From a virus: a stretch of 64,000 nt of DNA. The position numbers were made by a program, and so were the translations under genes. The DNA is taken from positions 26,449 to 90,448 of IMG/VR virus record IMGVR_UViG_3300036772_000557; one strand, 5' to 3'. Under the pieces are notes generated by a model. The model ran no database searches and had not been told where the DNA came from. It worked only from the letters and a program-made list of their open reading frames with translations. The first letter of the stretch is position 1. Every line of letters starts with the position of its first letter. Shown here piece after piece: positions 14,193 through 56,898 of the stretch.

Positions 14193-14207
14193 ATCTTGTG
14201 CTCGTGG

Positions 14208-15314: not shown

Positions 15315-15325
15315 TAGCAAGGCTC

Positions 15326-29589: not shown

Positions 29590-29592
29590 TTT

Positions 29593-35665: not shown

Positions 35666-36019
35666 TTATTGGGTCGCGACGATGCTAACCATTTGTGTAG
35701 TGTCGCCATCGGCTCCGAGACCCGGCCCATCCGGATTGACGATCACATTATTTCCGGAGAGCGCAAACGTCGAGGAATCGTCAGAAAATGGTGTCGTGAA
35801 GGCAATCGTTCCCGTGAACGGTGCCCCGTTCGACCAAGTCACATTGACTGCGCTGACCACCGTGCTTCCAGACGCATCAGACGAGAGCGACGGCGTCGGT
35901 GGATCGAAGGTTATGACCAGCTGGGGCACGTGATGCAGGATTACGTTCCCCATGACATTTATGGCCAGCATCATCGCCGTCGAAATGGCGAATAGGAACC
36001 AAAACAGCCGCTGATTCAC
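35666..36019 (-). CDS. Membrane-anchored Ig-like SDG domain protein
   Basis: About 117 residues from a GTG that overlaps the connector stop as GTGA. An N-terminal hydrophobic helix (LFWFLFAISTAMMLAINVMG) acts as anchor or signal. The rest is one Ig-like domain (SLSSDASGSTVVSAVNVTW, TFALSGNNVIVNPDGPG), nearly the minimal unit of the domain also found at the C-termini of the 6980 and 55762 proteins. Coupling to a connector gene is striking for an exported protein. Confidence 0.6.
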   Translation of the reverse strand: MNQRLFWFLFAISTAMMLAINVMGNVILHHVPQLVITFDPPTPSLSSDASGSTVVSAVNVTWSNGAPFTGTIAFTTPFSDDSSTFALSGNNVIVNPDGPGLGADGDTTQMVSIVATQ

Positions 36020-40941: not shown

Positions 40942-43470
40942 TTAGCGGGGCGGAGCCTGGCGGTCGCGGAGTTCCGATAGGCCGGCGAGCGATCGCGGCA
41001 GCGGCATCGGCGTGCGCGTGCCTTTGAATATCGCTAGGTCGCGGTCCTGCGGGCTCATAGCCGCGAGCGCATCGGCAACGTCGTTATGCGTGGGCTGTTG
41101 ACCCGAGCCGGCCGGCGCGTTGTCGGCCGCTTTCGTGGTCGGTGTTCCGCCGCGCACGACCGCCATCGGCGGGAATGGTGTGCTGGCGATCTGCTCGACG
41201 CGTCCGCCCATTTTCTCGACCCACTCCTGCAACTTGGTGAGCATCGGCACAATCGCGGTAACCGTTTTGACCAACTCCTCGTTCAGAGCGGTCTTTAGAG
41301 CGAGCTCGCCCTGCACCTTGGCAAGCGCATCGGGCTCAGCAACAACGGCCTTTGCGGTGCTTGATGCGCCCTGGCCTTCCTCCTCGCCCTCCGGCATCGG
41401 AGTGCCGCCCGGGGTCTCAGCCGAGTGGGCATGATCCGCCCCACCGGCGCATGTGACCCCGCCGACTTGGGTGAGACATCCGTGTGCCTTGTGCATGCTG
41501 GCCATGGTTTGCCCGTCATGCCGTTCCGGATCTGGCACATCGGCTTTGCAGGTCGAGCCATCGCAAAATGCGGCCACCGACTTGTGGGCCATCTGGACGA
41601 GGACCTGGTGCGGCTTGGCGCCGGCCTTCTGCATATCGCCGGCGAGCCCCGCGAATTCGAGGACGAGCTCGGCTTGCTCGCCGCCCGCCTTCGAAAGGTT
41701 CGATGTCATCTTGCTGAGCGCGTTCGCGAGCAGCGAGGTGTCCGAGGCCTTCGGCATCGGCGATGCCGGCACGGCGCCGGCGGATGACTGCGGCGTTGCA
41801 ATCTCTCCGTTCCTGCCGGTGTCTTGCGTCGCATTCGGCGGCGGCGAGCCCAAAGGCGGGCCGGCCACCGAGCAGGCACCACTATCGATGACCGCTTTGC
41901 GCGCGTCGCCGAGAGCCACCTTGTCGGTCTTGCTCGGCCCCGACATATCCAGGGCCAAGCCTATCGCGTATGCGGCATTGTCCGCATGCACCGTATCGGA
42001 TGCGCTGAACCGCGCGCCCTTCTCTACCACGCTGTTCACTAGCGCCTCCAATATTGCGGGATCTGAAATGGTTTTGTGCAATGACGTGATGATGGCCGAC
42101 ATATTGACGGGGCCCACTCCGAGGGGGCCGACCATCATTTCGCTATCGGAGACAATCTCCTGAGTCTCTTCGGCGACGAGCGCATTCAGAAAGTCGCAGA
42201 GCTCGGCGACGATCGTCTGAAGCCGGGACGGCTGCGGGCTGTCGTCTCCCTCCATCTCGGCCTCGATCGCGAGCCACGACGATAGCGAGTCGAGGCGGAG
42301 GATGGTGTCGGCGACTTGGGCGACATCCATCAAATGCTTGGCGAGGTCCTCGCGGGTGACCGCCTTCTCGCTCGCCGACGGCGGGCCGTCCTTGTCAATC
42401 TTCGACTTCCAAGCCGAGATGATCTTCGACTTGATCGCCTTGAGATCCTCGGCGCTGTATTTTCCGGCGTTCTTGGGCTTATTGATGTAATTCCACGCCG
42501 CCCGGATGTGCTCCGGGGTGTCGATCGGGTAGCGCTTCTTTCCGTCGGCCTGATGCCCCGAGTCCGCGTAGGATACGTCGCCGTAGGGCTTCGATCCGTC
42601 GCCCGAAGCATCGCCGCCTTTCGCCGCAGGATCTTCCTCGGCCTCGGTCGCCTCGCCCTGGATAGCCGGAGGCTCGACAGGCGCGCCCATGCGTGCCAGC
42701 ACGGCCTGCCCGCGCTCCATCGCCGCCCGAGCGGCTTCGAGCGCGGCCTGTGTCTCGTCCGGAGCCGCTGTGGCATGCTCGGCGGTCTCGGCCGGGGTTT
42801 CGGTGCCGGCGCCGGTCTCGGCGACCGTAGCGCCTTCTGCGGGGCTCTCAGCCGCCTTCGCGGTCTCCTCGTCGAGGCACTTAACCGCCTCGGCCTTCGC
42901 GAGGTGCCGATGCTCGGCGTTGCCGCAGGCCCACACCTGGACCGGCTCGGCACGCGCCTGCTTGGCCGCGAGGATTTCGCCGATATTGGCGAGCCCATCG
43001 GGCATGTCGGGTGTTCCTTCAATTGTTTCGGTGACTGCGGCGGCTTTCCAGCAGTCGAAAATAGCTTCCGGGTTTGCCGGTCGGTCAACGAGGCTAATCT
43101 CGTTTAATCTTAGACCAGTAATGATCTTACGATTGGTATGATCGCGTTCAGTAACCTGACCACCAATCGAGAAGCCTCGATAGACCTGATTTCTTACCTT
43201 GGCCACCGCAACCGGATCGACAACATGGGCGACAATGCGGGTAGTGCCGTCCTCGGAGACTTCGGCTTCAAGGGTCGATCCGGCGGCGGAAAGCTGGTGC
43301 ATTTCTCTGAGAGCGGGGAACCGCATATAGTCCGGGATCGCCGCACGAATGGCATCCGAGCGGACTATCTCTCCCTGGTCGTCGATCGCCTCGCTTGATG
43401 CGATTCCCTCTACCTTGACAGTGCCGTCGTCTTGCGGCTCTACCTTGCTAATGACGCCATAGAGCCGCAT
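40942..43470 (-). CDS. Prohead protease fused to scaffold-like region
   Basis: 842 residues with GGAGG upstream. Residues 1-135 are an HK97-type prohead protease (VEGIASSEAIDDQGEIVRSD, MHQLSAAGS with His58, YRGFSIGGQV with Ser101, EISLVDRPANPEA). Residues about 290-370 match the DUF6582-type segment (KRYPIDTPEHIRAAWNYINK). The rest is Ala/Glu-rich and helical, with a cysteine and histidine cluster (AAFCDGSTCKADVPDPERHD), and probably acts as scaffold. It processes the capsid during maturation. Immediately downstream of the secreted cluster. Confidence 0.75.
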   Translation of the reverse strand: MRLYGVISKVEPQDDGTVKVEGIASSEAIDDQGEIVRSDAIRAAIPDYMRFPALREMHQLSAAGSTLEAEVSEDGTTRIVAHVVDPVAVAKVRNQVYRGFSIGGQVTERDHTNRKIITGLRLNEISLVDRPANPEAIFDCWKAAAVTETIEGTPDMPDGLANIGEILAAKQARAEPVQVWACGNAEHRHLAKAEAVKCLDEETAKAAESPAEGATVAETGAGTETPAETAEHATAAPDETQAALEAARAAMERGQAVLARMGAPVEPPAIQGEATEAEEDPAAKGGDASGDGSKPYGDVSYADSGHQADGKKRYPIDTPEHIRAAWNYINKPKNAGKYSAEDLKAIKSKIISAWKSKIDKDGPPSASEKAVTREDLAKHLMDVAQVADTILRLDSLSSWLAIEAEMEGDDSPQPSRLQTIVAELCDFLNALVAEETQEIVSDSEMMVGPLGVGPVNMSAIITSLHKTISDPAILEALVNSVVEKGARFSASDTVHADNAAYAIGLALDMSGPSKTDKVALGDARKAVIDSGACSVAGPPLGSPPPNATQDTGRNGEIATPQSSAGAVPASPMPKASDTSLLANALSKMTSNLSKAGGEQAELVLEFAGLAGDMQKAGAKPHQVLVQMAHKSVAAFCDGSTCKADVPDPERHDGQTMASMHKAHGCLTQVGGVTCAGGADHAHSAETPGGTPMPEGEEEGQGASSTAKAVVAEPDALAKVQGELALKTALNEELVKTVTAIVPMLTKLQEWVEKMGGRVEQIASTPFPPMAVVRGGTPTTKAADNAPAGSGQQPTHNDVADALAAMSPQDRDLAIFKGTRTPMPLPRSLAGLSELRDRQAPPR

Positions 43471-43520: not shown

Positions 43521-44123
43521 TTAAAATACGAAGCCCCAGATGTAGACGTCTGCGGTCGCGGCCGCACCCTGCGCAGTCGTGAGCGAAAGAATCGGCGGCG
43601 TGGATTGCGCGAGATATTGGTTCAAACCGCCGGCCGCAGCAGCGATGTACTGATCAGTAAGCCCCGTCCCGGTGCAGCCCGTAAACGCCTGGGTGGTGCC
43701 GCTGCCGATAATGATCGTGCCGCCCTTGCTCGCCGCTGGATAGACCGCTCCGGCGGCTGTCGTCAGGGACACGCTGCAGTTTTTTGCCACCATGTAGAGT
43801 GGGATATAATGCTGCGACGAATTGATCAGCAGCGTGACTGTTTGGTCGGCGGTGGAGTTCATATTCGCGCCGATCAGCCGCCCGATCAATGTTGGGCCGC
43901 CGATGCCGACTTGCACACAGCCGGACTGCTCCAGATCGATAATGTCGTTCGCAGCGACGCCGGTCACGATGCCGTCGGCGGCTGCTGTATATGGGCCGCT
44001 CGACGGGAAGGGGTTGGGCGCGATCGTTTGAAACGGTGCACACTGCATTGTGGCGGCAAACGAGGGGCTTGCCGTTGCCAATGCAAGCGCCGCAGCGAGC
44101 CCGAACTTCGTAATATGACGCAT
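43521..44123 (-). CDS. Secreted protein, unknown function
   Basis: About 200 residues from the ATG at 44123 with GGAGG upstream. The signal peptide is MRHITKFGLAAALALATASP, cleavage near SFA. The body is Thr/Ala/Gly-rich and beta-predicted, with four cysteines. NIIDLEQSG-like and LLINSSQHYIPLYMVAKNC segments are seen, but no family is recognised. Last gene of the secreted cluster, 51 bases before the protease gene. Confidence 0.55.
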   Translation of the reverse strand: MRHITKFGLAAALALATASPSFAATMQCAPFQTIAPNPFPSSGPYTAAADGIVTGVAANDIIDLEQSGCVQVGIGGPTLIGRLIGANMNSTADQTVTLLINSSQHYIPLYMVAKNCSVSLTTAAGAVYPAASKGGTIIIGSGTTQAFTGCTGTGLTDQYIAAAAGGLNQYLAQSTPPILSLTTAQGAAATADVYIWGFVF

Positions 44124-44160
44124 GATGAAAAAACCTCCGGGGTTTGGAAAATCGTAAAAC

Positions 44161-44796
44161 CTAATTTGCGGTCGCGGTCCAAATCGTCTGGATCGTCGGA
44201 CTGAAGAGCAGCGCGCCGGGGTCGCCGGTTGCGGTCCCATTCAGGGCTAAGTACCGGCCGGTGGTAAGATCCTTGATGATCCAACCGCCCCCGGATGCGG
44301 TAATCGAAAATTTATCGCCGGAAGCGGCGAGACGAGCACGACCGGAGGAATCGACCAGGTATCCTGTAATCCCGACGCAAGAGCCAAGATTGGGCGTCTG
44401 TAGAGTGCTGCCGTTCCAGATCCACTTCTGGCAGCTATTTCCAGAACCCGATGACCCATAGGTCCCGACGTCCGGACTCCATCCGGCATCCGCGGCAAGT
44501 CCGTTAGGAGATGCCTTGCCGTTCCACACCGTGTATCGGCCGCTGGCGAGAGGGCCGCCGGGAGGCGGCGGCGGTGGCGGCGGAGGAGGAGGAACAACGG
44601 GCATGGCGAGGCTGGCCGCCATAGTGGTGACGTTGGTACACGTCATGACCTGCGGATGCGCACTAGAGATCGTGCATCCCTTGGAGGGGGCAGACCATGT
44701 CCCCGACGAAGCCGTGATTGTACCGGTAAATGTCTGAGCCATCGCGGGCGAAGACAATATAGCCAAGGTAACGGCTGCTCCTAAAATCCTATGCAT
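44161..44796 (-). CDS. Secreted lectin-like (beta-trefoil type) protein
   Basis: 211 residues: signal peptide (MHRILGAAVTLAILSSP, cleavage AMA), a 40-residue strand-rich part with two cysteines, a run of eleven prolines, then a 125-residue domain with KWIWNGSTLQTPNLGSCVG and GRYLALNGTATGDPGALLF, which looks like a ricin-type beta-trefoil. Such domains bind sugars. The start overlaps the membrane protein gene by eight bases, with a GAGGAGCGGGCA leader also used by the 53762 gene. Confidence 0.55.
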   Translation of the reverse strand: MHRILGAAVTLAILSSPAMAQTFTGTITASSGTWSAPSKGCTISSAHPQVMTCTNVTTMAASLAMPVVPPPPPPPPPPPGGPLASGRYTVWNGKASPNGLAADAGWSPDVGTYGSSGSGNSCQKWIWNGSTLQTPNLGSCVGITGYLVDSSGRARLAASGDKFSITASGGGWIIKDLTTGRYLALNGTATGDPGALLFSPTIQTIWTATAN

Positions 44797-45712
44797 GTGC
44801 CCGCTCCTCTGATCGGAATAATTGGGGTGACTGCTTTACGACAGCGAAGGCCAATCCAATGGAAGCCCGCACTGCTGGATCGCTGAGCTTGTAGACCCAG
44901 CGGTCGTAGAGGAAGTGCACGAAGCCCAGCCCGGCGCGTAACGCCACGGCGGTCACCGTTATCCGCATTGAGAGCCCTGGCGCGTAGAACAGCAGCCAAA
45001 AGACGATGGCGCCGACGATGAGCAGCAGAGCAACGAATAGCCACGGCGACCGCCCATGCTGGTTCGCCATCACATGGCTCGATATCCCGATGGCCGTCAG
45101 CGAGTGGTTGAAGATGAGGAAACCCAACATGAACAGGGACTCCTGGTGGAGCGCCCACGGGCTCAGATAACCTCTCATCTCGGCGAAGGGCATGAGAATC
45201 CTTGGTAGCAGGATCATTCCAAGGAGGGTCGTCAGGACAAGGCAAAGCGTCATGGCGACGCGGCGCTGGCCTACGACATCGGCACCTCTATGCTTTCTCC
45301 TGTAGATCTGGATCACGCCGAAGTGCTGCATCCCGAAGTGGTAGGCGTTCCAGAAGAAATAGATCACCAGCATGATCACAAAGGGCTGGCGGTAGTCGCT
45401 CCAATGGTAGACCCGCACTCCCAAAGTGGCAGGGTTTATCTCGTAGACCTTGTCGACGAAGACCCCGCTGAGCATCGCCGCGAGCATGATACAGGCCGGA
45501 ACCAGGATGAACTTCACCCAGCGCTCGACCATGATCTGGCGGAACGACCGGCTTCCCCAGGCGACAGCCAGGGGCATGATGAGATGCGCGGAGTTGAAGA
45601 CAACGAAGAGACCCATCATAACCGGAAACGGGGCAAAGAGCATCGCCACCCCGACCACCGGCCCGCTCAAGATCCATACGCCGTCCCACAGCGGGCCGCG
45701 TATCCAGGTCAT
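44789..45712 (-). CDS. Histidine-rich polytopic membrane protein
   Basis: 307 residues from the ATG at 45712, which overlaps the glycanase stop as ATGA. Seven to eight transmembrane segments. Conserved-looking histidine sites are FNSAHLIMP, FFWNAYHFGMQHFGVIQIYR, FNHSLTAIGISSHVM and LGFVHFLYDRWVYKLSDP. Spaced histidines on membrane helices occur in di-iron membrane oxygenases and Brp/Blh-type carotenoid enzymes, so a metal-dependent membrane enzyme is possible. I do not recognise an exact family. It is rare for a phage and is coupled to secreted glycanases. Confidence 0.55.
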   Translation of the reverse strand: MTWIRGPLWDGVWILSGPVVGVAMLFAPFPVMMGLFVVFNSAHLIMPLAVAWGSRSFRQIMVERWVKFILVPACIMLAAMLSGVFVDKVYEINPATLGVRVYHWSDYRQPFVIMLVIYFFWNAYHFGMQHFGVIQIYRRKHRGADVVGQRRVAMTLCLVLTTLLGMILLPRILMPFAEMRGYLSPWALHQESLFMLGFLIFNHSLTAIGISSHVMANQHGRSPWLFVALLLIVGAIVFWLLFYAPGLSMRITVTAVALRAGLGFVHFLYDRWVYKLSDPAVRASIGLAFAVVKQSPQLFRSEERAHA

Positions 45713-46827
45713 GGCGTGAGCTTTATCCCTGTGTTGCACTGCCCACTTGCCCAGTTGGCGCAGGAGAATACACGGATGTATTGAACGCGCATGTGCTGAG
45801 TCACGTTGGGGGCGGCGCAGGGGCCACCGAAGTAGCACTGCTGGAACTCCTGGGCGCCCAACATCAGACCCCAGAATTGACGTTGACTGTATTGAAAGCC
45901 GGCGCTTCCGCCGTCCCAGTGCTCGTAGCAGCCGGTAGGGCTGGCGCCCTGGTTGCCGGTAGTGGTATGAACACCGTCTATATAGGTGCACTTGGCAATA
46001 CCCGTCGCGCCGTCAGTGGTCAGCAACACCCCATAATCGTGGTAGCTGAACTCGTTGTTGGGAGCGGGCGAACCGCCATTCCACAAGAAGTTGCCGCCCG
46101 AGTACGCGAACGCGCCGTTGCCACTATAACCCGTGTCCGACTCTATGAAATCCCACTCGTTGAATGGCCCCGCTGTATTGAGGCTGAAGAAGCCGAACTC
46201 CTCGCAGTAGGTGCCTCCCGGCTGGCCCTGGGCGCAATCGGGCACACCGGCGTATGGGTTGACATCGCTCGGAAGTATTTGCAAGGCAAACTGCAGGTAG
46301 ATGCCCTGTGGAAAGTTATTGGTCTGGGCTGGGGTTCCCCCGCCCCACCCTCCGTTGCCCAGACTCATGGTCGTTGCCGAGACGCCGTTGTTGCCATCGG
46401 CGTTGGTGAATGCCATCTCGAGGACGTTCTTTCCGATCGACGAGTCGTTTATTATATTGAAGTCGGAGCAGGGCGCCGTGCCGGGCGAGTTATACGATGA
46501 GGGCCACCACAGCGCCGTGCTCTGTCCATTGCACCCAAGCCAGGTGGCTATATTCGAGAAGTTGTAGGTATTGCCGTTTACGGTGAAATCGTTCGTGGTC
46601 GAGAAGTCGTAATTGGCGGCGCAAGTCGTGTACCCTGCCGCCACTGCGGGGGCCGGCAGGTCGCCGATAATGTCTGGGCCAATGTCGCAGTGGGTGCCGC
46701 CACCCGACGTGGGCGCGGGCACCACAGTTACCGTAAGGTTCGCAGTCGGTGCGGCGAAGATGGCTGCTGGCGTTAAGACCAACGCTCCAGCGAATATAAT
46801 GGCCGTCGCTTGCTTTAAAACGCTCAT
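45709..46827 (-). CDS. Secreted GH16-like glycanase
   Basis: 372 residues with a GGAGAGG site. Signal peptide MSVLKQATAIIFAGALVL (cleavage near IFA), a post-signal strand ANLTVTVVPAPTSGGG, then a concanavalin-type catalytic domain. The motif E224-W-D226-F-I-E229 (NEWDFIESDTG) matches the GH16 catalytic ExDxxE, and the end MRVQYIRVFSC matches the usual final strand. GH16 enzymes cut beta-glucans, agar-type or capsule-like galactans. The substrate is unknown. Next to the GH30-like gene in one operon. Confidence 0.75.
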   Translation of the reverse strand: MSVLKQATAIIFAGALVLTPAAIFAAPTANLTVTVVPAPTSGGGTHCDIGPDIIGDLPAPAVAAGYTTCAANYDFSTTNDFTVNGNTYNFSNIATWLGCNGQSTALWWPSSYNSPGTAPCSDFNIINDSSIGKNVLEMAFTNADGNNGVSATTMSLGNGGWGGGTPAQTNNFPQGIYLQFALQILPSDVNPYAGVPDCAQGQPGGTYCEEFGFFSLNTAGPFNEWDFIESDTGYSGNGAFAYSGGNFLWNGGSPAPNNEFSYHDYGVLLTTDGATGIAKCTYIDGVHTTTGNQGASPTGCYEHWDGGSAGFQYSQRQFWGLMLGAQEFQQCYFGGPCAAPNVTQHMRVQYIRVFSCANWASGQCNTGIKLTP

Positions 46828-46880
46828 TTACAACAACCTCTCCGATCAAAAATACGGTCAGGGAGCATGATCGTCATACT

Positions 46881-48263
46881 CTACCTAGTTGTCCCGACGA
46901 ACGTCGTTATGCCGTAAGGAACGGTGGACGTGAACACGCCGGCACTGGGAACCAGATAGGACGGCACGCCAGAGGACGCGGAGCCCGCAGATAGGTTGCC
47001 GTCTGTCCCCAGCCACCCGATGGGTGTGCCGGAAGTGATGTAGGGGGTGACATTGCCGGTTATGGTAGCATTCTGAAGGCCGAACGTGATGCTCGGAGCG
47101 TCTGAGCCGTAGTTGAGGGCGATGATCGCGAATTTGGCGCTGTCTGGGCTCTTGAAAGCTGCGATAAAGATGTTCGGATACCCCGGCCCCGATGTCCCGA
47201 TCCGCACCCACCCGGGCCGGACAAACCTCGACCAGTTCCCAAAACCATAGTAACGCTTGGGGATCTGACCGAGGCCCAACGCAACGTCACCCACAACCCC
47301 GCCATTGCAGTTGCACACCGCGTTCCAGTAGTTCCAGGCGTTGACCCCACCAGTGACAACCGCGTCGTATATCCAGTGTTGAGACCCGCCGAGGGCGTCG
47401 TTGATGTCGTAGTTCGCGGCACCGGAAAAATCAGATGCCTCATCCTCCCAGACATGGCGCGTGCCGTCCACGGTCATGCAGGTGATGCAACCGTATTGGT
47501 GCGTCGAAAACATATCGACCTGCGCGTTCGCTGTGGGATTTCCCTCGATCGCCGAAATGTAGGAATTGAAATTATCCGGGGCCTCCGTTTCGGGAGAAAT
47601 CAACTTGACTGGCGGATTTAACGCATGCAGCAGGGGTCCAAGGACGGCCGCATAATTTGCTGTGGCGTCCGCGGAATAGAGGAAACCGCCGCAGCAATCG
47701 GGTTCATTTTCCGTCGTCATAGCGTATATGGGAATACCGGCGGCAGCCTGACCGGCAGCCCAGTTGGCGAGCCCTTGAGCCGAGATCTGATAGTTAGCCG
47801 AGGCCCCATAGGTACTCGGGTTGACCGTCCACGCGGTCGCGAACAGCGTGGCGCCGCGCGCCTTAGCGCCAGCAGACGAGACAGCGGAGGGAATGCCCTG
47901 GCCATCACCCGCCACTATAGTGTCTTTAAATGTTACGCCGTTGTCCGGGGTATCTATGCCTTCCCGCAGCAAGGTCAATCCAATGCCCGGCCCCGAGCAC
48001 CCCGGATCAGTGGCGTCCACGCAGTACAGCGCATCCAGCGTGGGGGGATTGAGGTTCCCGACCCAGGCGTTGGAGGCTCCGAAACCGTCTATGGTCTGGT
48101 GCACGTCGCTAAAGTTGGCGACGAAGGCGGCTGGAGGGGGCGGTCCGTCCGCAACGATCTCTACCGATAAGGTCGCGGCGGACGTGGCGGCCTGCACCGC
48201 GCGCGGTACACCCGCCAAAAGCACAGCCAGGAGTGCGACCGAAGCCACCCACGATACTCTCAT
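46881..48263 (-). CDS. Secreted GH30-like glycanase
   Basis: 460 residues from the ATG at 48263 with GGAGGAG upstream. Signal peptide MRVSWVASVALLAVLLAGVP, cleavage AVQA; then a PPPPAA linker and a GH30-type barrel beginning VHQTIDGFGASNAWVGNL. The acid/base Glu lies in YAMTTENEPDCC (Glu187) and the nucleophile in HVWEDEASDF (Glu275). The C-terminal 120 residues form the side beta domain usual in GH30. The family includes glucuronoxylanases and other beta-glycanases. Probably degrades exopolysaccharide or plant-derived xylan outside the cell. Confidence 0.8.
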   Translation of the reverse strand: MRVSWVASVALLAVLLAGVPRAVQAATSAATLSVEIVADGPPPPAAFVANFSDVHQTIDGFGASNAWVGNLNPPTLDALYCVDATDPGCSGPGIGLTLLREGIDTPDNGVTFKDTIVAGDGQGIPSAVSSAGAKARGATLFATAWTVNPSTYGASANYQISAQGLANWAAGQAAAGIPIYAMTTENEPDCCGGFLYSADATANYAAVLGPLLHALNPPVKLISPETEAPDNFNSYISAIEGNPTANAQVDMFSTHQYGCITCMTVDGTRHVWEDEASDFSGAANYDINDALGGSQHWIYDAVVTGGVNAWNYWNAVCNCNGGVVGDVALGLGQIPKRYYGFGNWSRFVRPGWVRIGTSGPGYPNIFIAAFKSPDSAKFAIIALNYGSDAPSITFGLQNATITGNVTPYITSGTPIGWLGTDGNLSAGSASSGVPSYLVPSAGVFTSTVPYGITTFVGTTR

Positions 48264-48280
48264 GATCCTAAACTCCTCCG

Positions 48281-48329
48281 GGCCCCGGACAATAGAAATG
48301 CCCGGCACGACTCCGGGCCGACGTCACCA
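48281..48329 (-). repeat. Leader repeat copy 2 (hairpin upstream of GH30 gene)
   Basis: About 50 bases homologous to 49148-49195: both begin TGGTGACG, contain a GC hairpin (here CCCGG/CCGGG) followed by a T-rich ATTTCTATTGTCCGGGGCC, then the AGGAGG-type ribosome site. It lies between the stop of the 48330 gene and the GH30 start. A terminator- or attenuator-like leader. Confidence 0.7.
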
Positions 48330-49127
48330 CTAATGGATGGACGCGCCCATCATGACAGTAGTGCAACCTGTGCCATCACTGGGACTGCCGTCCGAACATT
48401 GCGACGCATTCCAGTAAGGGTCCTGCCACGTGAACGTGACTGGCCCGGGGCCTACGGCGCCGGGGCTGCCCAACACGGTAATTCCGTCTGTGTTGCAGTC
48501 ATCAACTAATACAGAATAGCCACCAGGATCGATGTTATTTCCCTGACAGACGTCCCCCGCGGAGAACACCCAGAGTAGGGATGAATACGCTGTCGGCGAT
48601 ATCGTCATGGACGGATTTAACGCGTCTTGATCAATCGGTCCGGTGATCGTATCGACAGAGGCCGCGCCGGAATACTCGACAATTCCGCAGTCGCAGAAAT
48701 TATCAGAAGGAAGGGTACCTGTATAGTTAACAAATATTTGCGTTGGATTTCCCGTAACGCCCACTTTGTACCACATTAATATGTATTCACTATACGGATC
48801 CCATGTAACTGGCGGGGTAAGGTTGTAAGAATTACCGGCATTGTCCGTGATAGAAGTCGGAGCGGAACCATTTTGGTGAGAATATGCAACCACAGTATTG
48901 CCACTGCCGATCGCCGCCGGAAGGTTCCAGGTAACCGTACTGCCTGAAATCGTGGTACTGTGATGACTTGTTACTCCACGTACCACAGCGACGCCGCCAC
49001 CTGAGGGCTGGGAGGGCTGGATGGTCATCGTCAGGGTTGCGCTGGGCGCGGCCGTGCCAGCTACTGCCGGCACCAGAGTCAGCGCCGCGGCGGCCATAAG
49101 GCCAGCAACTCGCGTTGCAACACGCAT
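48330..49127 (-). CDS. Secreted beta-sandwich protein
   Basis: 265 residues from the ATG at 49127, with AGGAGG twelve bases upstream. Signal peptide MRVATRVAGLMAAAALTLVP; post-signal strand SATLTMTIQPSQPSGGG as in the GH16-like protein. The body is one copy of the beta-sandwich module (VVAYSHQNGSAPTSITDNAG, SEYILMWYKVGVTG, CDCGIVEYSGAASVDTI) also found in the 50047 and 11352 proteins. Several cysteine pairs. No catalytic motif. Perhaps a glycan-binding protein working with the glycanases. Confidence 0.55.
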   Translation of the reverse strand: MRVATRVAGLMAAAALTLVPAVAGTAAPSATLTMTIQPSQPSGGGVAVVRGVTSHHSTTISGSTVTWNLPAAIGSGNTVVAYSHQNGSAPTSITDNAGNSYNLTPPVTWDPYSEYILMWYKVGVTGNPTQIFVNYTGTLPSDNFCDCGIVEYSGAASVDTITGPIDQDALNPSMTISPTAYSSLLWVFSAGDVCQGNNIDPGGYSVLVDDCNTDGITVLGSPGAVGPGPVTFTWQDPYWNASQCSDGSPSDGTGCTTVMMGASIH

Positions 49128-49147
49128 GGATGCGAAAATCCTCCTGG

Positions 49148-49195
49148 CCCCGGACAATAAAAATCGCCGGGCGGGACGCCGCACCGGCGTCACCA
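49148..49195 (-). repeat. Leader repeat copy 1 (hairpin upstream of 48330 gene)
   Basis: Homologous to 48281-48329. On the minus strand TGGTGACGCCGG opens a GCCGG/CCGGC hairpin followed by GATTTTTATTGTCCGGGGCC and the ribosome site. The hairpin plus T-run looks like a terminator or attenuator placed inside a leader. Confidence 0.7.
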
Positions 49196-49221
49196 TGAAA
49201 TTGCGCCGTATAACGGCGTTA

Positions 49222-49812
49222 TTACAGAAGCGAGAGGTCCGCGCGATTGCGATCGAAAGTCAGGAAGAAGGGCATCGTCAGCCGTTGCCTTCCCTCTACT
49301 CGCGTCACCCCATGCTCGTGATCTAAACTGGCGGTAAACGCGATGAGCATGCCCGTCTTCGGCTTGATCACTATATCGAGACCGGTGAAATAGAACTCTC
49401 CACCCTGATACTCGTCATTGAGGTAGACGATTCCAGAGAAGTCACGGTGAGCCATGGCGTGCAGTGAGCCGTCTGGATTAGCATTATCGGCGTGCGGCGG
49501 CATTTGGGTGCCCACCGGCCAGCTCATGATTTGCAGCAGGTCTGGATAAACCGGTTGCTTCAGCCGATACAACTCCGCGATGAGGGCTGTCGCCCGGCGC
49601 AACGCATCACGCATATGGCCAGCCAGCTCGCAGTACACCTTTGCCACATCTGAATACCAGATGAAACGCTTATCCCAAAAGCCAGGCGCGCGATTGACAA
49701 TTAGAGTCGACAGGTTTCGGTATGCTTCGCAAAGGTCGTCACAAACAGTGGCTTCGAGAAACTTTTCCCTGATCAAGCACGTTTCGCCCGCCTCCGGCAG
49801 GTTTACTGCCAT
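49222..49812 (-). CDS. 2-oxoglutarate/Fe(II)-dependent oxygenase (prolyl hydroxylase type)
   Basis: 196 residues from the ATG at 49812, overlapping the upstream gene by ten bases. The iron site H107-x-D109 (MPPHADNAN) is followed by GIVYLNDEYQGGEFYF, and the distal site HEHGVTRVEGRQRLTM gives His167 and an Arg for 2-oxoglutarate. No signal peptide, so it acts in the cytoplasm. Phage enzymes of this fold hydroxylate proteins or modify bases. In this operon a substrate among the secreted proline-rich proteins is possible but unproven. Confidence 0.75.
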   Translation of the reverse strand: MAVNLPEAGETCLIREKFLEATVCDDLCEAYRNLSTLIVNRAPGFWDKRFIWYSDVAKVYCELAGHMRDALRRATALIAELYRLKQPVYPDLLQIMSWPVGTQMPPHADNANPDGSLHAMAHRDFSGIVYLNDEYQGGEFYFTGLDIVIKPKTGMLIAFTASLDHEHGVTRVEGRQRLTMPFFLTFDRNRADLSLL

Positions 49813-50042
49813 ACGGCTACAATGTTCGTCGCGGCTGTTCCGGTGCTCCACACCCGTTTCACACGGATCGGATGCCAGCCCGCCGCCGCGGCAGTAAAGG
49901 TCACCGTCTCGCCATTCAGCATGGTCACCGTTAGATCTCCGGCGATTCCGACATAGAGCGCGGTCGTCTTTGCCGGCAAGTCGACGCTGTCGCTGGGCGT
50001 TACCGCGACGGCATTTGGAACCGGATCGGAAATGTCAGCCAT
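49803..50042 (-). CDS. Small phage virion-type beta protein
   Basis: 79 residues from the ATG at 50042, four bases after the beta-helix gene. Short strands with VDLPAKTTALYVGIAGDLTV, ETVTFTAAAAGWHPIRVKRV and a final ATNIVAVW. This is the layout of a small phage structural protein seen in many tail and head operons, and the only clear virion-type protein inside the secreted cluster. It overlaps the oxygenase start. Confidence 0.6.
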   Translation of the reverse strand: MADISDPVPNAVAVTPSDSVDLPAKTTALYVGIAGDLTVTMLNGETVTFTAAAAGWHPIRVKRVWSTGTAATNIVAVWQ

Positions 50043-50046
50043 ATTA

Positions 50047-53010
50047 TCAAACCACCCACGTACCGAAGCCGAGGCGGATTTTGAAGAGGCCGCCCGCGGA
50101 GAAGCCGACGCCGCCATACGCCCCGATATTGAAGCGCGAGGCTAGCGGGATCGTGTTGCCGTAGAAGTCCTGCGGCCCGGGGTTGATGGAATACGCGGCG
50201 CTCAAATCCAGCCCCGCGCCGATCATCGGCGAGCTCGGCAATAGCTGGTAGGCAGTCGGTTGCGGCCGCCCATATCCACCCACTACGCCACCCGAGCCAG
50301 CTTTCACGAGCTTCGGGTCCACCGATAAGCCGTTCGCTTCCTGGCTCGCGCCGGATTTGAAGGCAGCAAACGAGGTGTAAGAAGTGCCGTTGTAGCTGAC
50401 GTGAAAATTAGTTGGCTGCAGGTAATCGTTGCCGTTCAACGTCGCTCCCGAGCCGTACACGGCGACGGGTTGACTGCTACCACTTACGATCGAATAGAAG
50501 ATGTTATTTGTTATGTGACCAGTAGTAGCGTTGTACTGCACGACAATGGCCGATCGCCCCGTCGTGTAAACCGTATTGTTATGCACGAGTACGCCAGTAG
50601 GCGCATTACCTGACGAATCCGAGCCGATCGAGATATCCGCGTAGACAGAATTGGCGGTGGCAAACGAGTCGTTTCCTTCAAGGATATTGTACCGCGCCAC
50701 ACAACCCGAATGCGTGCCACCGCTAAAGTTATAGAAAAAGATCCCGGCACCAAAGCACTCATGGATATAATTGTACTCCATGACGCAATTCTGGCAGTCG
50801 ATATCAAAATCTATGCCGTCGCCGTCTATATTCACGTTGCACTTCTGCAGGTAGACTTCATTGAATTTTATGACGGAGTCTGTGGCCCAATTATATTCGA
50901 TGCCAGCGTTGCCTTGGTTGTCCGCAGCGCCGCAATTATTGACGTAATTGAAACTTATCTCTGAATTGGTACACTGCGTTACGAGGATGCCGGAACCGCT
51001 CTGGTATGTTGGGCCCGATCCTGACCCCGGGCAAGCCGAGACCACACAGCGCGTCACCAGCACATTGTCGAAGAGCCGATGAGTTGAAAATCCAGATGAG
51101 CCGGTATTAAGCCACGGCCCGCTGAAAGCGATACCGGCAGCGCCGCCGACCGAACCTGTCGCGCCCGTGCAATTTGAGACGGTGCAATCCTCGATTGTAA
51201 CGTTGCTCAGCACAGCGGTCGCATGGTCGGCAGCGATGCAGAGGATGCCACCACGACCAAAGGCGCTGATATCGAGGTTCGACAGGACGATGTCGGAGAG
51301 ACCGGTTGTGACTGTTATGTTGAGGAAGACTCCGCTAAAGCCGGTTGAGCCATCTCCTGTAATGACGAGATCGTGGACCACGATGTCGCCGATATTGGTC
51401 AACTCGACCCCATGCGCGCCCGCAGCTGATATGGTGGCCGTTCCCGTCCCATAACTCCCGATCGTCAGAGGGCTCGCGGATGTTGGAGGGGTACCTGAGT
51501 AATTTGCAGTGCCGAGCGCCAGGCCACCCGTGAAAACATTGGCACCCTCGAAGAGGATCGTGTCCCCCGCAGAATAGGTCTGTGCCGCGACGTGAGCAGT
51601 CGTCTGCCAAGGAGTGGACGGAGAGGTGCCGTTGTTCGAATTGCTGCCGGAATTCGCCACATAGTAGGTTGTGCCGCCCGGTGGAGGCGGAGGAGGTGGA
51701 GGAGGCGGTGCGGATCCCAGAGAAAAACCCCATAGAGCACTGCCGTCACCGCTTCCTGTGGTTGCTGATACAGTATCCGTCGAACCTGTACCATCTTTCC
51801 ATTCTGACAGCCACGTGCTGGAAACGTTCTGGGCCGATGTAAAGCCTGACCCGATAGTGACCGAACCACTTCCGACATCGACACAATAGCCGAGGACCAA
51901 GTCCGAAGCGTCGGACGGTATCGAAACCGAAAGCGTAGAAGCGCCACTCGTGGCGTTTGTAGGGCTGGAGCCGGTCTCGGAATATGAGCCGGAGAATCCA
52001 GACCATTCGTCGATCATCATGACAGCAAAAGCTGGTGACGTGCCGCCGTCAGATATCGTCGCCGTTATGGTCGATGGACTATTTGTTAGCTCTGCATTCG
52101 AAAAGAATGTCGCCCAATAGTATGGAGTACCGCCGCCGCCTGAATAAAACCCATACTTCGTCCCGACGACAGTGTAGGAATTCGACTTGTCATCAGTGAC
52201 CGAGGCCAGAGTGGCCAGGCCGCTGCTTGCGCCGACCCATCCCACGACCCCAGTAACAACGTCGCCGGACGTAACCGGAGACGTAAAGGTGGCGGCGGGA
52301 TTATCACCGGATTGCCCACTGGTTGCTTTACCCTGGACATGAGCATAACTCGGGGGCGGTGGCGGTGGAGGCGGAGGTGGCGGAGGCGCCCCCGATGGAA
52401 TTAGCGCCATAGCCTTTATATATGCCGCGGCCGCGCCTGTATACGTCGGCGCCATAACCTGACTGGTGCCGGTCGCTGTGGTCCATTCACCTAAAAAGAA
52501 ATTATTATGCTCAGTTACCGGCAGATCCGCCGTAAGAACCGAACCTCCACCATATGCGTCCGCATACGCGATACACAGATCGCCGACATTGATCGGTGAG
52601 AGCGTAGTCGAAATCGTCCCGCTACCCGCGCTGTTTATTGTACTGCTGTCTGCCGAGGACGACACGGCGCCGGAACCGAGGCCATTCCATTCGTCAATTA
52701 TCAAACCCGCGAAGTTCGCCACTGAGCCGGTAATTGTCCCCGTAACGATGGTCGGTCCATTGGTAATCGGATTAGTGGAATAAAATGCTACTATATACCA
52801 ATTGTTGCCGCTATCGAATAGGTGAGGAAGAGTCGTGTACGCATTGGACTGATCGTCTGTTACCGTAAGGGTATCGGTACCGGATGAATTTCCCTGCCAT
52901 CCCACATGGCCAGTGACAACATTCCCAGACGTGACGGCAGTAGAAAACGTTGCGCTAGGAGTATTGCTGCCGGGTTGGTTTAAGGTGCCTTGGACATGAG
53001 TAAATGACAT
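50047..53010 (-). CDS. Beta-helix tailspike-like protein with two beta-sandwich modules
   Basis: 987 residues without signal peptide. Residues 1-205 and about 218-440 are two copies of the beta-sandwich module (VTGHVGWQGNSSGTDTLTVT; VTGVVGWVGASSGLATLASV), each followed by a PPPPPPPPPP linker. The rest is a right-handed parallel beta-helix of the polysaccharide-lyase type (YYVANSGSNSNNGTSPSTPW, GDTILFEGANVFTGG), ending in the common SPMIGAGLDLSAAY and FNIGAYGG segment. The lack of a signal fits a virion spike that binds or cuts host surface sugars. No catalytic residues assigned. Confidence 0.65.
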   Translation of the reverse strand: MSFTHVQGTLNQPGSNTPSATFSTAVTSGNVVTGHVGWQGNSSGTDTLTVTDDQSNAYTTLPHLFDSGNNWYIVAFYSTNPITNGPTIVTGTITGSVANFAGLIIDEWNGLGSGAVSSSADSSTINSAGSGTISTTLSPINVGDLCIAYADAYGGGSVLTADLPVTEHNNFFLGEWTTATGTSQVMAPTYTGAAAAYIKAMALIPSGAPPPPPPPPPPPPSYAHVQGKATSGQSGDNPAATFTSPVTSGDVVTGVVGWVGASSGLATLASVTDDKSNSYTVVGTKYGFYSGGGGTPYYWATFFSNAELTNSPSTITATISDGGTSPAFAVMMIDEWSGFSGSYSETGSSPTNATSGASTLSVSIPSDASDLVLGYCVDVGSGSVTIGSGFTSAQNVSSTWLSEWKDGTGSTDTVSATTGSGDGSALWGFSLGSAPPPPPPPPPPGGTTYYVANSGSNSNNGTSPSTPWQTTAHVAAQTYSAGDTILFEGANVFTGGLALGTANYSGTPPTSASPLTIGSYGTGTATISAAGAHGVELTNIGDIVVHDLVITGDGSTGFSGVFLNITVTTGLSDIVLSNLDISAFGRGGILCIAADHATAVLSNVTIEDCTVSNCTGATGSVGGAAGIAFSGPWLNTGSSGFSTHRLFDNVLVTRCVVSACPGSGSGPTYQSGSGILVTQCTNSEISFNYVNNCGAADNQGNAGIEYNWATDSVIKFNEVYLQKCNVNIDGDGIDFDIDCQNCVMEYNYIHECFGAGIFFYNFSGGTHSGCVARYNILEGNDSFATANSVYADISIGSDSSGNAPTGVLVHNNTVYTTGRSAIVVQYNATTGHITNNIFYSIVSGSSQPVAVYGSGATLNGNDYLQPTNFHVSYNGTSYTSFAAFKSGASQEANGLSVDPKLVKAGSGGVVGGYGRPQPTAYQLLPSSPMIGAGLDLSAAYSINPGPQDFYGNTIPLASRFNIGAYGGVGFSAGGLFKIRLGFGTWVV

Positions 53011-53013
53011 GAT

Positions 53014-53760
53014 TCATTTATCCCGACAGTCTAGGGGTTTACGAGCGCGCAATTTATTGACATGACCATCAACGGGCGTGCCGTCTGGGTGCCGGCCCAT
53101 GAAGTAGTGCTTTCGCCAAGCAGCCTTTAGCGTGTCTGCATCGCCAGCATGAAACCGACGCATGAAGTCGTTACGCGAAGCCGTGAAAGCCGCATATCGG
53201 GTCTGCAGCTCACGGTTCCCCGAGAGGTCTCGGAGTTCGGGATGACAGTCGCTTATCGCCTGCTTGCGTACCGGGAAGATGAAGCAGAAGGGCTCCCCCT
53301 TCTCAAAGGCGACCGATCCTGGCGCCGTCATCCGCCAGTTCATCGTGAAGGGATACGGCAACCAGTCGCTCTCCATGATCCCGGTCAGCGGAGAGATCCC
53401 GTGTTTGGGCGAATTGAACGGCCCGGTGGCAAGCAAATCCCATTCCGCGTCGGTCTGAAAGATGTAGTCGGTGTGAAACGTCACGACGCCGCTCGTGAAG
53501 TGAGAGCGGCAGAAGTTTGCCACGTATTGGTTGGGCTCAAGCGAACGGACGATCAGGTCCTCGGCCCGTGGCCCGCCGTTCCATTCGAGCGATACGCCAA
53601 ACGGGCAGAGAATGTCCCAGCCGTGGGCATTGGCTATCGTCAGCGGCAGACAGCGATAGGCATGGCGCGCCGGAAATTCGTCCATCCATTTGCGTGCTAC
53701 CTGCGCTGGTGCAATTTCGGGCGGCTGTCGATTGAGCGCAAAACAAGTGAGGGCGGTCAT
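53014..53760 (-). CDS. DUF6065 family protein
   Basis: 248 residues, soluble. Matches DUF6065 features: LPLTIANAHGWDILCPFGVS, VVTFHTDYIFQTDAEWDLLA, WLPYPFTMNWRMTAPGSVAF, then KGEPFCFIFPVRKQAI. The family has no known biochemical role; members occur in phages and bacteria, often near 2-oxoglutarate oxygenases or surface-sugar genes. One base and three bases separate it from its neighbours, so it is in the same operon as the beta-helix proteins. Confidence 0.75.
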   Translation of the reverse strand: MTALTCFALNRQPPEIAPAQVARKWMDEFPARHAYRCLPLTIANAHGWDILCPFGVSLEWNGGPRAEDLIVRSLEPNQYVANFCRSHFTSGVVTFHTDYIFQTDAEWDLLATGPFNSPKHGISPLTGIMESDWLPYPFTMNWRMTAPGSVAFEKGEPFCFIFPVRKQAISDCHPELRDLSGNRELQTRYAAFTASRNDFMRRFHAGDADTLKAAWRKHYFMGRHPDGTPVDGHVNKLRARKPLDCRDK

Positions 53761-53761
53761 T

Positions 53762-55750
53762 TTATTGTAGACACGTCGGCATCATCCCATGCTCGTAACA
53801 GTATTTCGCAGGCAGTGTATATGTGGTTCCCGACAATGGATCGACCAACGGCCACCGATCCGAACCGAAGAACACTGGCTTCGAGCTCAGATAAAACGAG
53901 AGCGGTATATTCTGATCGCTAATGGCCGGATCCCATACAACCGCATTGTGGAAAAAGTCGTAATTTCCATGACGGATCGCGGGACACTTGTCCCCGTTCG
54001 CCGATACACAGGACGCGGCGGCAGAGCCGATATCGCTCAGAATCTCAGGGTCTCCCCCGTGCCCATAAGCAGTATCGTTGGCTTCGCCGCCGAGCGAGAA
54101 GATGGCAGGGCCAGGGGAGTTGAAAACGTAGCTCTGGTAAACCCAACCATGCGCCGCGTCGCTGCGTCCAGGAGTACCCATGACGTTGCCAATAAAGGAG
54201 TGCCAGTAGTAATAAGACGCTAATTGAGAGGCGCGGATCGGGTAGCAGCAGCCGCCTGGAGTCCCATTGATGTCATCGTATGTAATGTTGTTGATATAAT
54301 CGGTAAACTTCGTACGATACCCGGTCAATTGATTGCGGAAATAGGTCTGATATGGATTCGACCCCCACGTACCATCACCATCGACACTAAAGGACCAGTT
54401 GCCCTCGAACAGAACGTGGTGTGCGCCCATCCAGTGACTAGCGTTGAGCCCGCTCTCGATATTCGGCCCCTCACTAAAGCCGAAGGCGTCATCGACGTAG
54501 TTGTACGCGATCACCGAGCCGTTGCCACCCTTCCGCATCACCATCGGCTTGTTATTAAGCATCGAGATGCTGTTTTCGATCAGAACCTCAGACGTCCCTT
54601 CATCAAGCGTCCAGTTGTAGCCGGCGCCGCCACTGGTCGGCCACGCTCCCTTGTGGTCGTAAACCCCTTCTACCTGATCACGAAAGCCGGAAACGATCCA
54701 GATCGTTCCGTTCGCTGAGATTGTGTCCTCGACGTTTTTGACCCAGCAATAGGCACACACGACCATGCGCACATCCGCAAAGTCCGCATTTCGCAGGGTC
54801 ATATCTTCAAGGCCAGCATAAGTCGTAAACGTCTGGCTAAACCGCGCTAGATGCGCCGCCCGACTGGTTCGATAGGTGATCATTACCGGATCATCAAACG
54901 TGACCGTGCAACTCGTTCCAGGGCATGGACCAGGTCCGACCGTCGCGATTTGTTTCATCTCCTCAATGTAACGATCACAGCCATCATTGCAAAAAAAGTC
55001 AGGCGGTTGGCCACCCGCTTGATCGTTGGGCAAAGCCGGATTGTGTCCGTTAAACGAGATCCGCCGATCGGGCGTTGCCAACACCTGACCGCCGAATGCC
55101 CAATCTGGTTGCCATCCCAAATTCGAGGATTCATCAAGCAAAACGATCTGCCCGACCGAGAGACCAGACGTACTGGCAACTTGTATAGTGTTCGACCCAG
55201 ATACTGCATCGACAGCCAGATTCGTGCTCCCGGCAAGGCTGTTATCGAATTCATTAGGCCCCATAATGAAGTGCGCCGAGGCGCAGTTTCCGCCTTGAAC
55301 GCCGACGCTTGCCCCGTCTGTACGTTGAATAAGCGTTCCGTCCGTCCCTGCCCCCGCGCCACGCACAGTTACGGATTTGTTGATGAATACTTGGTGGCAA
55401 TCACCGATAGTGAATGTTCCAGCAGAGAGCGAGACTACTTGACCAGTGGGGCAGCCATCCACGGCAGCTTGAATGCTCGCGGCGTCGTCCATACCGCCGC
55501 CCCTCGGGCTGACCGTCGCACACACGGTGCTGCGGCTCGGAATGCCGCCCACCGATTGCAACCCCGCCATTTTCCAATTTGCGTATGCGCTCCTCTCGGG
55601 TGGAAGCAGGCCCACTGTCGGATCGCTGCCACCTCCGCTAGCCGAGGTGACTGTGATCGCGAGATTCTTCGTCACACTGGCCGCATGCGCAGTCGCCATC
55701 GCCATCGCGGATGCAAAGACGGCCACAGCAAAAAGAAGAGGTTTTCCCAT
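53762..55750 (-). CDS. Secreted pectate-lyase-like beta-helix protein
   Basis: 662 residues from the ATG at 55750 with GAGGAGC upstream. Signal peptide MGKPLLFAVAVFASAMAMAT, cleavage AHA; then LAITVTSASGGG, the same kind of post-signal leader as in the GH16-like and 48330 proteins. The rest is a long parallel beta-helix (DDAASIQAAVDGCPTGQVVS, HHVLFEGNWSFSVDGDG, YRNQ-type FRNQLTGYRTKF). Folds of this type are mostly polysaccharide lyases or hydrolases; catalytic residues were not assigned. Coupled to the DUF4082 gene. Confidence 0.65.
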   Translation of the reverse strand: MGKPLLFAVAVFASAMAMATAHAASVTKNLAITVTSASGGGSDPTVGLLPPERSAYANWKMAGLQSVGGIPSRSTVCATVSPRGGGMDDAASIQAAVDGCPTGQVVSLSAGTFTIGDCHQVFINKSVTVRGAGAGTDGTLIQRTDGASVGVQGGNCASAHFIMGPNEFDNSLAGSTNLAVDAVSGSNTIQVASTSGLSVGQIVLLDESSNLGWQPDWAFGGQVLATPDRRISFNGHNPALPNDQAGGQPPDFFCNDGCDRYIEEMKQIATVGPGPCPGTSCTVTFDDPVMITYRTSRAAHLARFSQTFTTYAGLEDMTLRNADFADVRMVVCAYCWVKNVEDTISANGTIWIVSGFRDQVEGVYDHKGAWPTSGGAGYNWTLDEGTSEVLIENSISMLNNKPMVMRKGGNGSVIAYNYVDDAFGFSEGPNIESGLNASHWMGAHHVLFEGNWSFSVDGDGTWGSNPYQTYFRNQLTGYRTKFTDYINNITYDDINGTPGGCCYPIRASQLASYYYWHSFIGNVMGTPGRSDAAHGWVYQSYVFNSPGPAIFSLGGEANDTAYGHGGDPEILSDIGSAAASCVSANGDKCPAIRHGNYDFFHNAVVWDPAISDQNIPLSFYLSSKPVFFGSDRWPLVDPLSGTTYTLPAKYCYEHGMMPTCLQ

Positions 55751-55761
55751 TTGCCCGCTCC

Positions 55762-56616
55762 TCACTGCACGGCGGTGAGGGTGACGTTCTGAACGGTTCC
55801 GCCGTCTTTGCTGACGCCGGAGCCTGCCGGATCGATGTAGAGGCTGCTTCCAGATAGGGCAAAGGTGCCCCCGTCATTACTGTAGGGCTGCGCAAAACCA
55901 ATGGTGCCAGCAAATGGGTGGCTCCCGTTCACATCGTCGCTCCAATCCACATTTACGGTAGCGACCGCGGTGCCGGGAGGGCTATCGGCTGTGATCGTCG
56001 GATTAGCTGGATTGAAGCTCATCACGAGGCTCGGAGGCGGCGGCGCGCTCGGGGTAAAGGAGATATCCACCCAATAGTTGCTCGCCTGCCAGGTACTGTT
56101 AGGCCGCAGCAGTGACGATCCGTAGATGTAGACCCCGTTTCCCAAAGGCGCGGCGCCGTTTGCCAGCGCGATCAGCGGCCCCGAGGTTACCTGATTGGCC
56201 AACCCTTGCTGGTCATCGGCGTAATGGCCGCCCTTGACGAAATAGGTCGCGATGTAGGTTTTGTTGGCCGTGATCGTCAGCGGCGTGGAGAAATCCAGCT
56301 CTTCCCAACATGGCACCGAGCGGCAAGGTTCGGTGGAGACGCTCTTGAAGGCCAGCCGCGCGCCGCTCGTGTCATCAAAGATGCCGACCGAATATCCGCT
56401 CGAGCTCTTCGCGCCTCGGTAAAACCGCACGCCCTTAATGGTTCCGGCCTGCGTGCTGTAGAACTGCACGCCGAGAGTGACCGAGTTCGTGTCGGGATCG
56501 ACCGGTGTCTTGGGAGTGTCGGTCCCGAAAAGCGTAACCACCGTCTGCGCGTGAGCCGTCATGGAGAGGAGGGCTGCCGCAACAATCAACAGCCACGCCG
56601 TCGAGCCGATTTTCAT
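55762..56616 (-). CDS. Secreted DUF4082 plus Ig-like SDG protein, first gene of the cluster
   Basis: 284 residues from the ATG at 56616 with GGGGGA upstream. Signal peptide MKIGSTAWLLIVAAALLSMT, cleavage AHA. Residues about 35-185 match DUF4082: VTLGVQFYSTQAGTIKGVRF, FSTPLTITANKTYIATYFVK, ASNYWVDISFTP. A PPPPS linker leads to the Ig-like domain (TAVATVNVDWSDD, GGTFALSGSSLYIDPAG). DUF4082 occurs in large secreted carbohydrate-active proteins. It is the first gene after the candidate promoter and operator. Confidence 0.75.
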   Translation of the reverse strand: MKIGSTAWLLIVAAALLSMTAHAQTVVTLFGTDTPKTPVDPDTNSVTLGVQFYSTQAGTIKGVRFYRGAKSSSGYSVGIFDDTSGARLAFKSVSTEPCRSVPCWEELDFSTPLTITANKTYIATYFVKGGHYADDQQGLANQVTSGPLIALANGAAPLGNGVYIYGSSLLRPNSTWQASNYWVDISFTPSAPPPPSLVMSFNPANPTITADSPPGTAVATVNVDWSDDVNGSHPFAGTIGFAQPYSNDGGTFALSGSSLYIDPAGSGVSKDGGTVQNVTLTAVQ

Positions 56617-56703: not shown

Positions 56704-56898
56704 ATGCGACCGATGAAAACCGCGAACATGCAGGTCCGCCTGACGCAACCGGAGAAGGAAGCGTTTGAGAAAGCAGCGCAATTGTCCGGAATTTCGCTGT
56801 CGTCCTGGGTGTGCGAACGGCTCCGCAGGGCGGCGATCGTCGAATTGCGCGAAGCGGGTCTCTCGATCCCGTTCCTGGAGGGATTCGGTGACGATTAG
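56704..56898 (+). CDS. Ribbon-helix-helix DNA-binding protein
   Basis: 64 residues, or 56-61 if a later ATG is used; no clear ribosome site. MQVRLTQPEKEAFEKAAQLS followed by ISLSSWVCERLRRAA is the strand-helix-helix pattern of Arc/MetJ-type and DUF1778-like regulators. It is divergent from the secreted cluster with the palindromic sites between them, so it is the obvious candidate regulator. No toxin gene lies beside it. Its end overlaps the convergent portal gene by a few bases. Confidence 0.65.
   Translation: MRPMKTANMQVRLTQPEKEAFEKAAQLSGISLSSWVCERLRRAAIVELREAGLSIPFLEGFGDD

Follow-up and report, generated by a model that had tools for sequence, protein, structure and literature searches.

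A variable slot between the portal and protease genes of a soil phage lineage and its predicted exported, glycan-directed cargo

Introduction

What is a 13-kb set of genes, many of them predicted to encode exported and carbohydrate-directed proteins, doing inside the head operon of a phage? Phage glycanases are usually viewed as virion spikes or as single auxiliary genes, and the accessory genes that phages carry inserted between structural genes are known as morons. The set lies in a window of 64,000 nucleotides (the whole stretch analysed, bases 26449-90448 of the 90,448-bp IMG/VR viral contig IMGVR_UViG_3300036772_000557), and positions given without a locus name are those of the window. 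An initial annotation had described it as a lone insertion at a junction that is normally closed, with functions unlike those of lysis or tail genes.

Results

The phage and the borders of the slot

The minus strand of the window encodes a terminase, a portal-MuF fusion, a head-maturation protease, a capsid-like protein, head-tail connectors and a 2882-aa tape measure. The portal gene, fused to a MuF domain (56895-59408, minus strand; PF04860 Phage_portal, 1.4e-21; PF04233, 3e-6; phrog_2662, 1.9e-86), forms the left border of the slot. The protease gene (40942-43470, minus strand; phrog_1028, 8e-10; phrog_21715, 2.5e-60; Peptidase_S78 match weak) forms the right border. The phage is probably temperate, because a tyrosine integrase (PF00589, 2.7e-18) is encoded in the rest of the contig, outside the window. 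The relatives of the portal and a DUF6065 gene in the cassette point to an alphaproteobacterial host.

Comparison of the window with related loci L005 and L016 revealed a second variable slot between terminase and portal. It is filled by an N6/N4 DNA methylase in the window (59442-60587) and empty in L005 (L005:4830-4833). In L016 (L016:3850-10016) it spans ~6 kb, with a gene for a signal-peptide protein of 855 aa among its contents. The tail module of the window includes a radical SAM protein (30786-32018) and a glycosyltransferase-like protein (28105-29661). Two possible lysis genes at the tail end (1308-2691), encoding a holin-like protein of 94 aa and a 365-aa protein that is muramidase-like by eye, had no family match.

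Layout and integrity of the cassette

Between the portal-MuF and protease genes are twelve ORFs (g1 to g12, from the portal end; 43521-56616, ~13 kb), all on the minus strand as the initial annotation stated, although it counted thirteen. Intergenic gaps range from -10 to +93 bp, with ORFs overlapping through the block, and the border gaps are 278 bp after the portal and 50 bp before the protease. GC content is 0.582 in the cassette versus 0.622 in the other window genes (p = 2e-4), T is more frequent at third positions, and AT skew flips sign at the borders. A consensus scan for promoters and terminators gave site counts in the cassette not above shuffled expectation, and the idea that it forms its own transcription unit was dropped. 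No endolysin, holin or spanin was recognised in the cassette.

The lower GC would suit an assembly chimera or host DNA within the contig, as would the finding that the middle genes, g3 and g6-g11, occur in this contig only, with no copy in any other viral contig or phage searched. Against this, the ORFs overlap throughout, g4 and g5 have phage relatives, and both ends are confirmed independently. Loci L004 and L005 carry the order portal, DUF4082 gene, beta-helix gene seen at the portal end of the cassette; L125 and L126 both have g12 upstream of their protease. The cassette ends are therefore not a join; L004/L005 at the portal end and L125/L126/L006 at the protease end rule one out, and an artefact or host fragment is very improbable. 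An assembly join, named initially as a possible refutation, is thus discounted for the ends, and the middle genes stay particular to this contig. Searches of 50,697 phage records with g2, g3, g8, g9 and g12 gave no match, and IMG/VR searches with g1, g8, g9 and the DUF6065 gene returned L004 alone or nothing. Origin of the whole cassette as a bacterial island was rejected for g1, g2, g4, g5 and g12 on account of their relatives in phages.

Genes with phage relatives at the slot

The first gene, g1 (55762-56616, minus strand), encodes a signal peptide, DUF4082 (PF13313, 8e-35) and an Ig-like domain, and is 72-73% identical to its L004 and L005 counterparts at the same location. Its Ig-like domain is reused, being present in four window genes of the head, tail end and cassette (35666-36019, 6980-7738, 4238-4699 and 55762-56616).

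The product of g2 (53762-55750, minus strand) has a signal peptide followed by a right-handed beta-helix resembling tailspike depolymerases. A nine-sequence profile matched polygalacturonase 1bhe (2.6e-4), and a Foldseek search with the predicted model, which is confident in the N-terminal half only (pTM 0.47), returned K1 capsule lyase 7w1c (3e-11) as well as the phi297 and LKA1 tailspikes. Modelling thus gives good support to a phage-depolymerase-like beta-helix fold for g2. No virion anchor domain was found in g2; the signal peptide is followed by ~45 residues leading to the helix. In L005, g1 and g2 form a single ORF with one signal peptide (signal peptide, DUF4082, Ig, beta-helix). In the window and in L004 they are two ORFs, each with a signal peptide of its own.

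At the other end, g12 (43521-44123, minus strand) encodes a signal peptide and a domain common to the C-terminus of exported spikes in sister phages. Identity is 65-66% to L125/L126, 41% to L006 and 41% to the spike C-terminus in L036/L037/L046. The domain is also C-terminal in non-exported spike-like proteins of L192 and L194. A phage late region, L104:1075-12268, contains a run of about ten signal-peptide genes, several of them tail-fibre-like and one a g2 homologue.

Candidate glycanases

The g8 product (46881-48263, minus strand) comprises a signal peptide and a GH30 glycanase domain related to AcXbh30A and the XynC-type xylanases. Against the PDB, phmmer gave 7n6h (AcXbh30A) at 1.7e-26, and the match to 5cxp covers residues 50-429, the full domain. 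The acid/base glutamate is kept (TENEPD aligned over QNEPD), as is the nucleophile (VWEDEASD aligned over IWMTEVSD). The similarity is remote and falls below the NCBIfam XynC cut-off. The alignments confirm the initial GH30 reading, with g8 predicted to be a xylanase-type enzyme retaining both catalytic glutamates. The neighbouring g9 (45709-46827, minus strand) encodes a signal peptide and a GH16-like protein with 12 cysteines that carries the GH16 active-site motif ExDxxE as EWDFIESD. It had no Pfam, NCBIfam or PDB match and its single-sequence fold model reached a pLDDT of 30, so that the GH16 assignment made initially is probable, by motif, rather than shown. No donor for either gene was matched in 289 alphaproteobacterial genomes. 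Among 199 genomes of the phylum of an acidobacterial MAG, GH30 gave weak matches only (~30% identity) and g9 none.

The remaining cassette genes

Three of the twelve genes, g3, g6 and g10, have no link to glycans. The product of g3 (53014-53760, minus strand) is a DUF6065 protein without a signal peptide (PF19541, 7e-92), from a family that is alphaproteobacterial and chromosomal, occurring in 23 of 240 alphaproteobacterial genomes at 33-48% identity. A pairing of DUF6065 with the oxygenase in bacteria was rejected, as the neighbours of DUF6065 genes were unrelated. A 2OG-Fe(II) oxygenase of the prolyl-hydroxylase type is encoded by g6 (49222-49812, minus strand; PF13640, 7e-11; phrog_61, 4e-16), with its HxD...H...R motif intact by eye. 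The third, g10 (44789-45712, minus strand), encodes a polytopic membrane protein, judged by hydrophobic segments in the translation, with no family match.

The largest product, that of g4 (50047-53010, minus strand), has two N-terminal beta-domains, polyproline linkers and a C-terminal Beta_helix (PF13229, 1.1e-13), and no signal peptide. It has a homologue in L100, and its N-terminal domain is related to g7 (2e-9), which encodes a signal peptide and the beta-domain present twice in g4 (48330-49127, minus strand). The small structural-like protein g5 (49803-50042, minus strand) is 42% identical to L125:1339-1656, upstream of the L125 protease. A signal peptide, a polyproline stretch and a small beta domain make up g11 (44161-44796, minus strand). 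The proposed lectin identity of g11 was not upheld, since the PDB matches fell in a low-complexity stretch and were to propellers and trefoils of designed origin. Pfam matches upheld the other families named initially, namely DUF4082, DUF6065, the 2OG-Fe(II) oxygenase and the Beta_helix of g4. The prolyl-hydroxylase-type oxygenase lies beside the long polyproline linkers of g4 and g11 (44161-53010), and a putative enzyme-substrate link between them is possible.

Export signals

Seven of the twelve genes (g1, g2, g7, g8, g9, g11 and g12) start with a Sec-type signal peptide under a rule requiring a charged, hydrophobic, small-residue N-terminus. Because this rule is crude and is not SignalP, we measured its background on calls for terminase, portal, protease and capsid, of which 2 in 222 were positive. 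In the dereplicated relatives, signal-peptide genes made up 42 of 125 plus-strand slot genes versus 84 of 498 other non-core genes (p = 9e-5). Cysteine content was 1.41 per 100 aa in signal-peptide proteins versus 0.89 (p = 1e-10), as would be predicted for proteins that fold oxidatively outside the cytoplasm. Selection for export is hinted at most strongly by the g1/g2 split, in which both halves carry a signal peptide. Export of the seven products, as predicted by the rule, is well supported. With the flanking genes identified by Pfam and PHROG, this bears out the initial description of an exported, largely carbohydrate-directed gene set with seven Sec signals inside the head operon. Five further signal-peptide proteins are encoded in the tail region of the window (6980-8430, 13719-16168), and the cassette is thus not the sole source of exported proteins.

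The beta-helix, Ig and g12 proteins could instead be spike or decoration parts of the virion, their N-terminal hydrophobic segments not being working signal peptides. The g2 fold and the L036 spike resemble tail spikes, the g12 domain ends the non-exported spike-like proteins noted above, and related late regions often encode tail-fibre-like proteins. On the other side, g2 lacks an anchor between signal peptide and helix, both products of the split ORF have kept a signal peptide, the exported proteins are cysteine-rich, and such N-termini are all but missing from the core virion calls. We judge a virion role to be improbable.

The portal-protease interval in relatives

The portal was found at about 95 related loci, 57 from IMG/VR and 39 from bacterial contigs. 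Portal and protease lie within ~140 bp of each other in records of Rhizobium, Caulobacter, Sphingomonas, Methylobacterium, Beijerinckia, Frateuria and Limnobacter, those of Rhizobium, Caulobacter, Sphingomonas, Methylobacterium and Frateuria being prophages. They adjoin in the isolated Brevundimonas phage Polewnik, in which a lysozyme-like gene follows the tail genes, and nearly adjoin in Arthrobacter phage Sonali, with one 216-aa gene between them. In the soil clade, 0.6-8.6 kb of cargo separates the two. A large group carries paired cargo, a ~150-aa exported protein and a longer exported one (480-915 aa) whose start is of the pectate-lyase type and whose L036 copy matches a tail-spike PHROG (1.8e-6). 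L087 and L090 have a GH108 endolysin in the interval. In L125 and L126 the genes upstream of the protease include g12, a GH25 lysozyme and exported beta-helix proteins, and the L126 portal lies elsewhere. Caulobacteraceae records hold minus-strand DUF6491 genes in the gap. On a 66-row portal tree the slot state (empty, exported or other) changes at least 21 times, a count that takes in seven rows of unknown state, and the states are clustered by clade.

The portal-protease interval is thus a variable slot, filled in most relatives of the lineage and empty in others, rather than a normally closed junction with one isolated insertion. Nor is its content foreign to lysis and tail functions, as had been proposed. 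The g2 fold matches tailspike depolymerases, GH108 and GH25 enzymes sit in the slot or before the protease in sister phages, and the tail end of the window itself has counterparts of slot genes.

Other features of related loci were also seen. In L038, L041, L049, L052, L012, L021 and L024 the portal C-terminus is variably extended and small genes (DUF1835/DUF3658, TPR) come next, an arrangement that recalls polymorphic MuF toxins (PMC5576092). The first four of these carry additional partial portal copies downstream, one of them fused to a DPBB domain. Portal-fragment duplication was not adopted as a mechanism of insertion, as it was seen at these four loci only and is absent in the window. 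The L031 gap has a minus-strand pair resembling an ABC transporter (ATPase and permease; L031:6633-8950). L002:8129-9943 encodes a 604-aa protein that is alpha-amylase-like by eye, with no Pfam or PHROG match.

Exchange and selection of slot genes

Homologues of three tail-end genes of the window (13719-14192, 12896-13153 and 4014-4223) lie within the slots of L006, L057, L023 and L067. Between the window and L004, dS was 0.37 for the portal, 1.68 for g1 and 2.4 for g2. Between the window and L005 it was 0.30 for the terminase, 0.72 for the portal, 1.55 for g1 and 3.0 for g2, values above ~2 being saturated and indicating direction only. Backbone dS against these near relatives (0.30-0.77) is thus far below that of the slot genes (1.55-3.0), which implies exchange of the cargo for diverged alleles through recombination. 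dN/dS was 0.13 for g1 and 0.20-0.26 for g2. On these substitution rates, the cargo is shown to be swapped by recombination and kept functional by purifying selection acting on g1 and g2.

Discussion

The reading that we lean towards, with somewhat better than even confidence, is that the 13-kb block is host-interaction cargo of a slot in temperate alphaproteobacterial soil phages, a late-made set of Sec-exported, glycan-active proteins that aids spread. We infer the timing of expression, the release, the substrate and the benefit of the cargo as follows. The genes would be expressed as part of the late head transcript or alongside it, and the seven Sec-exported products would fold in the oxidising periplasm. 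This set would comprise glycanases of GH30 and probably GH16 type, an anchor-free depolymerase-type beta-helix, and Ig or binding modules. Set free with the progeny at lysis, or before it, the proteins would act on polysaccharide around the dying cell, whether capsule, exopolysaccharide or xylan from plants, by cutting or binding it, and this clearing or binding may let virions escape and reach new hosts. The DUF6065 protein, the 2OG oxygenase and the membrane protein would be passengers captured from bacteria.

The same genes could act earlier, as a lysogenic-conversion moron expressed in the lysogen, by which a living host uses or remodels plant or microbial polysaccharide. Such a role would fit the integrase on the contig, the xylanase-type g8, the host family of DUF6065 and a cassette composition unlike that of the backbone; soil phages with GH AMGs and integrases have been reported (PMC10127799). 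We nevertheless consider it unlikely, as independent promoters or terminators did not exceed chance, the cassette shares strand and tight packing with the late genes, and g1, g2, g4, g5 and g12 are phage-type genes recurring in late regions of other phages. 

A broader and more tentative proposal is that this lineage has a dedicated, recombining head-operon 'secretome slot', through which lysogens or infected cells export whole sets of glycan-degrading and glycan-binding proteins that alter the polysaccharide around them, to the benefit of phage spread or host nutrition. Habitat remodelling by the cassette products, as suggested initially, is possible.

With a defined slot that is variously empty or occupied by an endolysin, an exported depolymerase or several enzymes, one can ask directly if soil phages secrete enzymes that degrade polysaccharide, either at lysis or ahead of it, and how cargo of this kind comes to be exchanged. 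The portal-to-protease interval also offers a simple rule for mining exported phage glycan enzymes.

Comparison with known systems places the cassette near several of them. Like morons, it consists of accessory genes of differing composition among late genes and is missing at the same junction in many relatives; unlike them, it is same-strand, twelve genes long and partly of phage ancestry, with no promoter or terminator of its own found. The g8 protein shares fold-length similarity and both catalytic glutamates with the GH30 xylanases AcXbh30A and XynC, from which it is remote. With the tailspike and capsule depolymerases (K1 lyase, phi297 gp61, LKA1 gp49), g2 shares a right-handed beta-helix and a polygalacturonase/pectate-lyase-type start, but it has a signal peptide instead of a virion anchor and sits in the head module. 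Glycanase genes of soil viruses are already known, and a recombining portal-protease slot with exported glycan-active sets was not found described in the literature searched, which was covered in part. Reported cases include an active GH5 endomannanase from a permafrost soil virus (PMC6786970), mangrove virus CAZymes (PMC6460857), a tundra prophage-like contig with GH16 and an integrase (PMC10127799) and the active chitosanase V-Csn of a soil virus (PMC9485262). The term 'signal peptide' was not found in the texts of these four papers, nor was 'secret-' in PMC6786970 and PMC9485262. The soil-virus auxiliary genes resemble the window in being virus-encoded glycanases, GH16 included, some with integrases; the window differs in that its set comprises several genes, most of them for exported proteins, and occupies a defined slot shared within a phage lineage.
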